A DNA stretch of 57,624 bases from a virus. A model generated the notes under the pieces. The model saw only the letters and a list, made by a program, of their open reading frames with translations. It made no database searches and was not told the DNA's origin. Shown piece after piece: positions 43,548 to 46,490 of the stretch. Location: positions 1 to 57,624 of the IMG/VR virus record IMGVR_UViG_3300045588_000058; one strand, written 5' to 3'. The position numbers and the translations under genes are program-made. Position 1 is the stretch's first letter; the number at the start of each line of letters is the position of its first letter.

Positions 43548-44516
43548 CTAAATAGCAGCTAGTTTTTTAGTTTTTAATTTACCTTCTAATATCAACAACT
43601 CATCTTGGTTATCATCATCAGCTAGGAATCTAATTAAATCTTCTTCATCTTTAGCAATTTCATATTCACCTTCATAAACTTTACCATTAGGTTTAATTCT
43701 ATATACTGAATGTGCTGTTGCTTGTTTGACTAAATCTTTAATATGTAATAAGTCATCTTTCATATTAGCAAACCTATTAAATACTTCAACTGGATTTAAG
43801 CCTGAATATTTACCATTCTTAAATTCTGTTTGTTTTAATACATTATCTACTTGATTGTAAACAACTTCTTCTTTTGTTTCTTCTGTTACTGGTAAACCTA
43901 AAAGTCTTGCAACTTTTTTCTTTTTATCAGGAGTCATTGAATCAAACATTACAATTGCTTTATTAATCAATTGTTTTTTCTTGTATATTACAGCGTTTTC
44001 TATCTCATCATCTACAACATAAAATTGTGTATCTGCAGCATATTCTCCTCTTTCCCAAGCTTGGTGTGAAGATGCAATTGTTGGATGTACTCTTAACCAG
44101 GAAAATGCTATCTCTTGAAAAGGTACAGATAGATCAAAATAATTATCACCATCTAATAACTTAACTGATTGTACGTGTGATTGATCATCTGTAGAAGTTG
44201 ATAAACCATAGTTCCAGAATTGTGAACGAGGCCCTAAATCAATATCACCTAATTCATATTCAAGTTTCTTTTTAAGATTTGCAACTCTTTCAGTTTCTAG
44301 TTCTCTTTCTAGAGGATCTTGAATTCTTCTGATATACGCAGCATCTGGATCTAATCCTGTTCTGTATTTACCATCTAATTCTTTATAAGGATATTTGAAT
44401 ACTCCTGTTCCAGGGATTCTTGTCATTCCTTTTTGTGCTAATCCACTATCCATTGTTTGAAGTTGTGAACTATTAAACTCACGTTTTATCGTAGAGATTT
44501 TTCCTAATTTTGCCAT
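43548..44516 (-). CDS. Conserved structural protein next to the major capsid gene (322 aa)
   Basis: A charged, mainly helical 322-aa protein with a proline/glycine-containing start (MAKLGKISTIKREFNSSQLQ, then RIPGTGVFKYPY) and an acidic C-terminus with DDDNQDELLILEGKLKTKK. It is the first protein gene after the tRNA and structured RNA that follow the capsid gene. No enzyme motif can be seen. By position it is a head or neck protein of the crAss-like conserved block. Confidence 0.55.
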   Translation of the reverse strand: MAKLGKISTIKREFNSSQLQTMDSGLAQKGMTRIPGTGVFKYPYKELDGKYRTGLDPDAAYIRRIQDPLERELETERVANLKKKLEYELGDIDLGPRSQFWNYGLSTSTDDQSHVQSVKLLDGDNYFDLSVPFQEIAFSWLRVHPTIASSHQAWERGEYAADTQFYVVDDEIENAVIYKKKQLINKAIVMFDSMTPDKKKKVARLLGLPVTEETKEEVVYNQVDNVLKQTEFKNGKYSGLNPVEVFNRFANMKDDLLHIKDLVKQATAHSVYRIKPNGKVYEGEYEIAKDEEDLIRFLADDDNQDELLILEGKLKTKKLAAI

Positions 44517-44550
44517 AATGTAGTTTAATTTAATAATTGGTTTTAATTTG

Positions 44551-44623
44551 TTGCGGTGATTGGACTCGAACCAATGACTGTCAGCTTATGAGGCTGCTGA
44601 GCTACCAACTGCTCTACACCACG
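44551..44623 (-). tRNA. tRNA-Met (CAT), initiator-like
   Basis: A complete 73-base cloverleaf on the minus strand starts with CGTGGTG and ends with CACCGCA plus discriminator A. The D stem is GAGC/GCTC, the loop AGTTGGTA, the anticodon loop CTCATAA (anticodon CAT), the T stem ATTGG/CCAAT and the T loop TTCGAGT. C1 faces A72 unpaired, and the D stem has an A11-U24 pair. Both are marks of bacterial initiator tRNA-fMet. The three G-C pairs of a normal initiator anticodon stem are missing (GCAGC/GCTGA, with a G27-A43 mismatch). CCA is not encoded. It lies 35 bases upstream of the start of the 322-aa gene. Confidence 0.92.
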
Positions 44624-44630
44624 ATTTAGT

Positions 44631-44850
44631 AGAGTGGTTCCACCGAAGGAACCTGAACCTGGATACTATCCATTTCAAACACTCTGACACTTAGTTACGT
44701 TGCTATGCAAGAGGCTTGACTAAGTATTTTTTAAAGCTGTCCAAACTAAATCCTGCTTTCGCTGTCTAGATTTTATTCTGCTTTAGGATTGAGATCAACC
44801 CCCTCTAGGAGGGAGAGGAGGTGAGGGGATCTTTCTCAGAAAAATGAGTT
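44631..44850 (-). ncRNA. Candidate structured RNA between capsid gene and tRNA-Met
   Basis: This stretch carries no gene but several complementary segments. They are AGAGTG/CACTCT (44631-44636, 44680-44685) enclosing GGTTCC/GGAACC and GGAT/ATCC; ACTTAGT/ACTAAGT (44689-44695, 44719-44725) enclosing TTGC/GCAA; AATCCT/AGGATT (44749-44754, 44785-44790); CCCCTC/GAGGGG (44800-44805, 44823-44828); and CTCA/TGAG (44835-44838, 44845-44848). It is visibly richer in G and C than the flanks. Read-through from the capsid gene would produce it joined to the tRNA, 7 bases away, so tRNA processing could release its 3-prime end. I know no family that it matches. The transcribed strand is assumed from the neighbouring genes. 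Confidence 0.55.
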
Positions 44851-44915
44851 ACTCTGGTACGCCTACAACTAGTAAAAAGTAATTATTCTTCTTGGCGTAG
44901 TAACTACTGTTATTA

Positions 44916-46490
44916 TTAGAATTGTGGCATTTCCTCAATCAACACAGTTCTAGACAAATCTTCAATAAATACATCACATCTGTCTTTCATCCAGATTTCG
45001 TATCCTGGGAATTTGTTAGCACTTGACATACCTTGAGATTTTGCAAATCCTAAGTGATGACGAGTTCCATCAATATAACCCCAAGTCATAGAAGGAGCAC
45101 CTTTCATACGTACTTCTCTAATGTTATTCACCATACTACCATCACCCATTGGAGAAACATCAAACACCATAAATACAGGAGTAGATTTTTTGTTTTGTCC
45201 AAATTCTAGGTTAGATTGTGGTAAATCCAATTCTTTCAAGTGAATAAGTTCAACACGACCAGTCTCACGTGTAACCATTGCATCAAATGCAAAGTTGTAA
45301 GTAATGTGTTGTCCTTCACCTTGCATATATCTGTTTCCAGAATCTGCCATAAATGTAAGACCACTGTTAAGAGCATCTGTTTTCAAAGCTTGTTGGAATA
45401 CATCAAATCCAGCTTCGTTAGTATACATTTTAACACGTCTGTCTTTTACATCCACTCTTCTGTAGAACAAATCTCCAAAAACTGAACGAATCAAGTTAGC
45501 AGAAAATTCTCCACGGTTATATTGTACCAAGTTACCGTTGTTACGCATTCTGTGATAAACACCAGCAGATGTACGTTTAACTTCTTGTTTAGACCCACCA
45601 GATTTAACTGTACCTGGTTTAGCCCAAATCATACGTTTAACTTTAAGTTCAAGCATAGATTTACGCATCCAGAATTCAATAAACGGTTCCCATTTAACAT
45701 CATTACGAGTAAGTGGTAATTGGTTACGTCTTTGTGGAGCATATACCAAAATATCAAGAGGTTTACCTGAAGCATCTCTCATCATTTTATCATCAGCCCA
45801 TTCAGTGATTTTGTGCTCATAACCATATGCAGAACCCAAAGATTCAAACATTGTGATTTGCTCACCCAATCTTGGAAGACCCAATAAATCTTGATCGAAT
45901 TCTCCAATTGCAGCATCAACTAATTCTAGTTCAATACCATGTTGTAAAAACAAAGGATTAACAAAGTCAACAGTTGGGTTATCAGTTACAAGTGTAAATG
46001 AATACAAATAACCTGCATTCCATGGCAATGGATCTTTGATCACGTAGAAACGTGGACCATATTGACGTGTACCTACAGAAATGATAGCATTTTTAGAAAA
46101 TTCATTAGTATCCAATACTAATTGAAATTCTTGACCATCAATACCAACTTTACCAGAACCAGTAATACCTTCAATGATATCTGTAGTAGAGCTAGGAACA
46201 TCAATAATTTTTGGGAATTTGTAAGGAACTGCTACTTGCCATTTCCATGCATCACTATTATTATCTATGTAATAAGGTGTGCTTTTGTTGATCATGTCTA
46301 AGAAGTCATTACTGTACAACGAGCTCTGGGTATAAAGACTGATGATTTTTTTATCATAGTCCGCAGGCTCAGTAGAGTGAAAACTCTCTAAGTGATTTGA
46401 GTCTGTAAGTTTACCTACAGCACGTTTGTCCATAGACGCTACTCGTGCATAAGTAAAACCAGTTAACCCAGGGATTGTTTGAATACTCAT
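44916..46490 (-). CDS. Major capsid protein
   Basis: The 524-aa protein has the expected length and position (directly after a scaffold-like gene and portal) for the HK97-fold major capsid protein of crAss-like phages. Its sequence is mixed alpha/beta without enzyme motifs. Stretches such as GTRQYGPRFYVIKDP and PVFMVFDVSPMGDG suit the fold. Codon use is richer in C and G at third positions than in neighbouring genes, as expected for the most abundant protein. The start MSIQTIPGLTGFTYARVAS has an A/T-rich leader without Shine-Dalgarno, usual for Bacteroidota. It is followed by the structured RNA and the tRNA. Confidence 0.85.
   Translation of the reverse strand: MSIQTIPGLTGFTYARVASMDKRAVGKLTDSNHLESFHSTEPADYDKKIISLYTQSSLYSNDFLDMINKSTPYYIDNNSDAWKWQVAVPYKFPKIIDVPSSTTDIIEGITGSGKVGIDGQEFQLVLDTNEFSKNAIISVGTRQYGPRFYVIKDPLPWNAGYLYSFTLVTDNPTVDFVNPLFLQHGIELELVDAAIGEFDQDLLGLPRLGEQITMFESLGSAYGYEHKITEWADDKMMRDASGKPLDILVYAPQRRNQLPLTRNDVKWEPFIEFWMRKSMLELKVKRMIWAKPGTVKSGGSKQEVKRTSAGVYHRMRNNGNLVQYNRGEFSANLIRSVFGDLFYRRVDVKDRRVKMYTNEAGFDVFQQALKTDALNSGLTFMADSGNRYMQGEGQHITYNFAFDAMVTRETGRVELIHLKELDLPQSNLEFGQNKKSTPVFMVFDVSPMGDGSMVNNIREVRMKGAPSMTWGYIDGTRHHLGFAKSQGMSSANKFPGYEIWMKDRCDVFIEDLSRTVLIEEMPQF

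Follow-up and report, generated by a model that had tools for sequence, protein, structure and literature searches.

The window analysed here, i.e. the whole stretch of 57,624 bases, is one virus record. It contains members of the PHROG families of the major head protein, the portal and the large terminase, and from these head-gene families and its giant ORFs we take it to be a crAss-like phage. The features considered below lie on the minus strand and are listed in the direction of reading, with the intergenic region given ahead of its contents.

44916–46490, minus strand: major head protein (capsid) gene, PHROG 11589, 524 aa, upstream of the tRNA.
44517–44915, minus strand: intergenic region of 399 bases from the capsid gene to the 322-aa gene, containing the Y-RNA and the tRNA.
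44791–44838, minus strand: strong hairpin with a pyrimidine-rich loop, found by folding, upstream of the Y-RNA and with no T run behind it.
44630–44686, minus strand: conserved three-way-junction RNA, here called Y-RNA, just upstream of the tRNA, supported by covariation.
44551–44623, minus strand: initiator-type tRNA-Met(CAU), positions 1–73, from ARAGORN, Rfam and a base-by-base parse.
43548–44516, minus strand: gene of 322 aa, PHROG 16383, function not assigned, downstream of the tRNA.

A search of 44400–45000 for terminator-like sites on the minus strand found none, so the stretch from the capsid gene to the tRNA is free of them; it does contain one weak promoter-like match (44798–44770). 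Besides tRNA, no Rfam family matched at E < 0.3 in 44480–44930. The gap and its counterparts in relatives form a mosaic of hairpin modules that are present or absent between close relatives. The stem of the hairpin at 44791–44838 is found in relatives' folds and its loop letters vary; in the window the loop is ACCTCCTCTCCCTCCT and includes ACCTCCT, the anti-Shine-Dalgarno letters of 16S rRNA.

ARAGORN places a tRNA-Met(cat) at 44550–44623 on the minus strand, and Rfam matches RF00005 at 44551–44623 with 57.5 bits (cut-off 29, E 7.6e-10); both programs find only this tRNA in the window. Its landmarks are C1 at 44623, G30 at 44594, the anticodon at 44590–44588, C40 at 44584, A72 at 44552 and the discriminator A73 at 44551, and CCA is not encoded. 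In the acceptor stem (CGTGGTG/CACCGCA), an unpaired C1·A72 is followed by G2-C71, U3·G70, G4-C69 and G5-C68; the D stem (GAGC/GCTC) gives A11-U24; and the anticodon stem (GCAGC/GCTGA) consists of a G27·A43 mismatch, C28-G42, A29-U41, G30-C40 and C31-G39, closing on the loop CTCATAA. The parse thereby bears out what an earlier note on this DNA had read from the letters, namely a C1-A72 mismatch together with A11-U24, and an anticodon stem that has a G27-A43 mismatch and lacks the three G-C pairs. Beyond that note's list, the middle pair G30-C40 is kept, the only G-C among 29-41, 30-40 and 31-39, and 3-70 is U·G. The acceptor determinants of bacterial initiator tRNA are G2-C71, C3-G70 and G4-C69, with C3-G70 being a formylation determinant; the window tRNA has the first and the last of these, and U·G at 3-70 instead of C-G. 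Since two of the three G-C pairs are missing and G30-C40 alone remains, we class it as a relaxed viral variant (CAU, 1·72 unpaired, G30-C40, and a pair other than G-C at 29-41, 31-39 or both) and not as a canonical tRNA-fMet.

The CAU anticodon is also that of elongator tRNA-Met and of tRNA-Ile2, which reads AUA after lysidine modification, and the A31-U39 pair of some elongators and of Ile2 occurs in several tRNAs from the same slot in relatives. Either identity is most improbable in view of C1·A72 (elongators pair 1-72), A11-U24 and the likeness to Bacteroidota initiators. The acceptor of tRNA-Ile2 has C4-G69 and C5-G68, where the window tRNA has G4-C69 and G5-C68. Moreover, in Streptomyces phage Wakanda an elongator-like tRNA-Met has C30-G40, whereas the neighbouring initiator-type tRNA has G30-C40. 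An alternative 5′ end that would pair position 1 with 72, a possibility the earlier note had raised, was ruled out: counted from the T arm, position 72 is A, no shifted end pairs position 1 with it, and 18 other distinct tRNAs of the same slot are likewise unpaired at 1·72.

The resemblance to Bacteroidota tRNA-fMet that had been noticed from the letters was also found in genomes: a search of 345 Bacteroidota genomes matched the window tRNA in 77 of them at E ≤ 1e-5, the best with 82% identity over positions 8–74. Of the 25 loci retrieved by this search, 6 contain the D-arm letters GAGCAGTTGGTAGCTC of the window tRNA. Bacteroidota tRNA-fMet and the window tRNA have in common CAU, an unpaired 1·72, G2-C71, G4-C69, A11-U24 and G30-C40, as well as the CTCATAA loop and a TTCGAGT T loop, and many Bacteroidota copies are also without an encoded CCA. 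They differ in the A29-U41 and C31-G39 that stand for G-C in the window tRNA, in its U3·G70 for C3-G70, and in its G27·A43 mismatch. We take the probable source of the window tRNA to be a Bacteroidota tRNA-fMet, judging by this likeness.

Relatives in IMG/VR were retrieved via the capsid protein and the 322-aa protein, and the gap was excised from 147 loci, 93 of them distinct. With two extra scans, queried from other clades, 287 loci with 153 distinct gaps were covered, and no additional slot tRNA appeared. By ARAGORN, 36 of the 153 distinct gaps contain a tRNA (35 Met(CAU), 1 Thr(CGU)) and 117 are without one; within the first 93 the division is 36 to 57. The slot is fixed: in 35 of 36 regions the Y-RNA is followed by the tRNA after 4–7 bases (the exception, L061, has a 414-base spacing), and in 33 of 36 the tRNA ends 31–35 bases ahead of the 322-aa gene (about 500 bases in the other three). 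Across the 93 distinct gaps, a slot tRNA never occurs without the Y-RNA. Read by eye, the regions with exceptional spacing contain HNH-type endonuclease genes, and HNH-like endonuclease genes are inserted at the tRNA slot in L061 and also in L026, L031, L043, L058 and L097. In L061 the endonuclease gene lies within the anticodon loop of a tRNA half of the window's type (group a), followed by a complete tRNA of another type (group c) that reads CGU.

The 36 tRNA-bearing regions hold 19 distinct tRNAs, 18 of which keep CAU, and the counts that follow are not independent because the sequences share kinship. Position 1·72 is unpaired in 19/19 (C·A 11, A·A 3, G·A 3, U·U 2), and G2-C71, G4-C69 and G30-C40 are each present in 19/19, the CTCATAA loop in 18/19; at 3-70, U·G occurs in 14 and C-G in 5. 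Positions 27, 28, 29 and 31 of the anticodon stem vary with compensation, and only 30-40 is constant. Since these same-slot homologues have two-sided paired changes in the acceptor, anticodon and T stems, the window tRNA is not a chance match. Four members of group a (L006, L025, L086 and L099) have an extra T in the D stem. We considered this as decay and rejected it: GTAG at 10-13 is found in 12 of 124 viral initiator-type tRNAs among the matches listed (see below) and in Sinorhizobium phage phiM12, so the type recurs. Group b (5/19) has a different D arm, U-A at 11-24, a U·U acceptor mismatch and a GGG:CCC stem, and group c (2/19) has a D arm without GG, with one member, L061, reading CGU. 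A11-U24 is absent from both groups, whose best-kept parts are the acceptor and the T arm. The parse of group b is ambiguous. An elongator with a shortened acceptor (GCGGTTT/AATCCGC) was dropped for a parse with 1·72 unpaired, G2-C71, C3-G70, 12 stacked pairs and both linker bases kept, at the cost of U6·U67 and C49·A65 mismatches. A search of a group b tRNA against phage records gave no match.

On a tree of the 322-aa gene only, covering 81 of the 93 regions (12 were dropped by a capsid-gene length rule) and with bootstrap not settled, the absence label changes 14 times, at least 8 of these being forced by supported branches. The slot has thus been lost, regained and swapped, with an occupant of the initiator type. 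This patchy presence, together with the G27·A43 mismatch and the loss of two of the three G-C pairs, is what might be left of a captured host tRNA-fMet that is decaying with no present function; yet the stem changes are compensated, 1·72 stays unpaired though its bases change, and the relaxed state recurs in unrelated phages, all of which make a relic distinctly unlikely.

The Y-RNA has about 55 bases, an outer stem AGAGTG/CACTCT and a hairpin loop TTCRRT. It is found in 93/93 distinct gaps, and 24/24 records have one clear copy per genome, with one weak second match. Across 84 aligned copies, 98.2% of cells pair and 9 of 12 pairs change on both sides, a covariation reached by 0 of 500 shuffles; the alignment is fitted to the model, 2 of 86 sources gave no match, and the model (R1) includes one row 8 bases off and its structure contains 2 of the middle-hairpin pairs. 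Judged by its covariation, the Y-RNA is a real structured RNA. It is independent of the tRNA, since 57 of the 93 regions hold the Y-RNA alone, and a non-translational role of the tRNA with this adjacent RNA, which the earlier note had entertained, is for that reason not favoured.

The fixed same-strand position between the Y-RNA and the 322-aa gene would also fit a tRNA kept only as punctuation, that is, as an RNase P/RNase Z signal that splits the capsid mRNA from that of the next gene. The good preservation of the acceptor and T arm in groups b and c points the same way, as do other tRNA-like RNAs of the same phages in which the anticodon domain is replaced. However, such a signal needs neither CAU nor an unpaired 1·72 nor G30-C40, all of which were kept during slot swapping, and 57 of 93 distinct regions manage without a tRNA. 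We therefore regard punctuation as unlikely.

To place the window tRNA among viral tRNAs, IMG/VR was searched for tRNA 3′ halves by two patterns, at least 120 stretches each, with the anticodon stem unconstrained. The patterns fix the 3′ letters of 2-71, 3-70 and 4-69 and admit only A or T at 72, so that conservation at these positions is partly chosen and that of the anticodon stem is not. Among the matches listed there are at least 177 CAU tRNAs (175 distinct), and 124 have 1·72 unpaired, two of these coming from the window's own phage family. G30-C40 is present in 123 of these 124 listed matches and GGG:CCC in 28; the remaining 96, one of which also lacks G30-C40, amount to about three quarters relaxed. 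Also among the matches listed, the pair 29-41 is G-C in 55, A-U in 55, U-A in 10, C-G in 3 and G·U in 1 of the 124, and 31-39 is G-C in 73, U·G in 19, A-U in 16 and C-G in 7, with a few others; the CTCATAA loop occurs in 96 and G27·A43 in 4. Restricting the listed matches to those with G2-C71 and G4-C69 gives G30-C40 in 122 of 123 and GGG:CCC in 27. In contrast, bacterial initiators retrieved by a similar pattern have GGG:CCC in 43/43 distinct sequences, a control of 15 Bacteroidota and 28 Clostridia-side sequences (phylum of a Ruminiclostridium) and not of all phyla; against 28/124 among the viral matches listed, the difference has a Fisher P of 3e-21. A separate set of 90 bacterial 'initiators' was left out as a host control because it had been sorted by GGG:CCC, many members having been fetched by a pattern that holds it.

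G30-C40 is also enriched relative to other viral tRNAs. Among the matches listed, it occurs in 70% of 912 other viral tRNAs and in 51% of 49 other viral CAU tRNAs. When the initiator-type tRNAs are clustered at 80% identity, 63 of 64 clusters have it (P 3.5e-9 vs 70%). The 51 listed viral CAU tRNAs without the 1·72 mismatch have G30-C40 in 48 and GGG:CCC in 4. Being common in tRNAs at large and in these 48 of 51 too, the pair is no proof of initiation alone. Loss of the full GGG:CCC is ordinary among the viral initiator-type tRNAs sampled, and from its sequence features the window tRNA is a real initiator-type tRNA of the relaxed type common in viruses. The earlier note had suggested that the tRNA, with the three G-C pairs missing, may be an initiator diverging to a new use. 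In that form the suggestion is not supported: the window tRNA keeps G30-C40, and 96 of 124 viral initiator-type tRNAs among the matches listed are likewise without full GGG:CCC.

Seven named records, drawn from 19 matches similar to the window tRNA and so not an unbiased sample, all have an initiator-type tRNA with G30-C40, and two of them, Bordetella phage PHB04 and a faecal clone, have GGG:CCC. Wakanda and Sinorhizobium phage NV1.1.1 carry the window's own triplet, A-U/G-C/C-G. Like the window, Wakanda, NV1.1.1, phiM12, Synechococcus phage S-CRM01 and Vibrio phage nt-1 have relaxed 29-41/31-39 with G30-C40 kept, whereas their tRNAs differ from the window tRNA in the acceptor, D and T arms; the acceptor parses of nt-1 and NV1.1.1, in which further mismatches fall on or close to position 2, are less sure. 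Wakanda and S-CRM01 have other tRNA genes beside this one, while the window tRNA is alone behind the capsid gene. Among the open-licence PMC papers listed by the literature searches, titles, abstract openings and selected passages gave no description of a relaxed viral initiator class.

According to passages of PMC11497404, formylation depends on C1-A72, 16S A1339 and G1338 make A-minor contacts with pairs 30-40 and 29-41, with A1339 contacting G30-C40, and changing G30-C40 to C30-G40 cuts translation 20-fold. Passages of PMC7005279 describe the central pair, G30 above all, as the most crucial, and in those of PMC10486304 the inactive E. coli '3GC mutant' is UA/CG/AU, i.e. with the middle pair altered as well. 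An unpaired 1·72, a fixed G30-C40, a mostly purine-pyrimidine 29-41 and a free 31-39 are the pattern that would be expected under formylation and P-site selection. Cellular precedents, not phage ones, are the unusual mycoplasma initiator tRNAs and 'unconventional' E. coli initiators, which function without complete GGG:CCC.

We propose, with a probability of roughly two in three, that the window tRNA is a working phage-encoded initiator derived from a Bacteroidota-like tRNA-fMet, with its outer G-C pairs relaxed. Instead of drift to a non-translational use, the best reading is a tRNA that appears pared to the pair which the ribosomal P site grips most. What the sequence comparisons demonstrate is the tRNA, its fixed slot, its conserved determinants and the virus-versus-host contrast. 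Probably the late transcript of the capsid gene would include the tRNA, which RNase P and RNase Z would release and to which CCA would be added. The tRNA would then be charged with Met and formylated via its unpaired 1·72, G2-C71, G4-C69 and A11-U24, and IF2 would place it in the P site, where 16S A1339 would grip G30-C40; pairs 29-41 and 31-39 have been given up, as they have in most of the viral initiator-type tRNAs sampled among the matches listed. The benefit is the least certain step: most likely the tRNA would serve as extra initiator in late virion-protein synthesis and/or as a host-unlike initiator when that of the host is depleted or cleaved. Altered start selection on phage messages, which had been suggested, is not supported by the window's ORFs: in all 29 on the minus strand of at least 100 aa, the first possible start codon is ATG. 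Several findings count against a working initiator: U3·G70 replaces C3-G70 in 14 of the 19 slot tRNAs, 117 of 153 distinct regions dispense with the tRNA, and the features of group b (U-A at 11-24, acceptor U·U) and group c (no GG in the D arm) affect 5 and 2 of the 19, respectively.

A replacement for a cleaved or attacked host initiator, its altered stem being poorly cut by a nuclease directed at the stem-loop of the host initiator, is possible but rather unlikely. The slot stem differs at several pairs from the host's TCGGG/CCCGA, and also between close phages. Passages of PMC10264068 propose that phage tRNAs evade anticodon nucleases, and name tRNA-fMet as the target of VapC-LT2; as in the window tRNA, the anticodon arm of those phage tRNAs is altered relative to the host. 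However, the phage tRNAs in these passages change the loop, which is the cut site there, whereas the window tRNA keeps the loop and changes the stem: CTCATAA is unchanged in 18/19 slot tRNAs and is also found in 96 of 124 viral initiator-type tRNAs among the matches listed. The same passages state that, in the presence of VapC-LT2, phages as a rule refrain from encoding tRNA-fMet.

It is puzzling that bacterial initiators keep three G-C pairs though most of the work falls to the middle one. If viral loss of the outer pairs has been repeated with the middle pair kept, it amounts to natural mutagenesis, in which each tRNA offers a test of what the outer pairs are for and of whether an infected cell begins translation on another initiator. 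We tentatively suggest, though we would sooner bet against it than for it, that bacterial viruses carry a distinct, convergent class of initiators which keep the formylation marks and G30-C40 and shed the rest of GGG:CCC, since the pairs given up serve a cellular checkpoint that a virus can skip or must avoid. As part of the same tentative suggestion, the checkpoint might be one of ribosome maturation or quality control, or a point at which defences directed at initiators recognise the tRNA. The class contrast between viruses and bacteria is the point of specialist interest here.

Other tRNA-like RNAs were seen in these phages. In the Y-RNA, the outer stem stacked on the TTCRRT hairpin resembles the acceptor/T-arm half of a tRNA. 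A tmRNA occurs in relatives (L508–L524) and not in the window: RF00023 matches 17 of 23 records, 15 of them over the cut-off, and in 12 of the 17 loci fetched a tag, for example ANAQIEANMNKVFSLLGEEVAVAA, is read by ARAGORN. Further relatives (L159–L170) carry RNAs with tRNA-Leu-like acceptor, D and T arms, in which the anticodon domain is mostly swapped for unrelated sequence. The 12 matches, from 11 genomes, have total lengths of 41–144 bases, their acceptor stems covary, and in 8 of the 11 genomes they lie less than 600 bases from a tmRNA.
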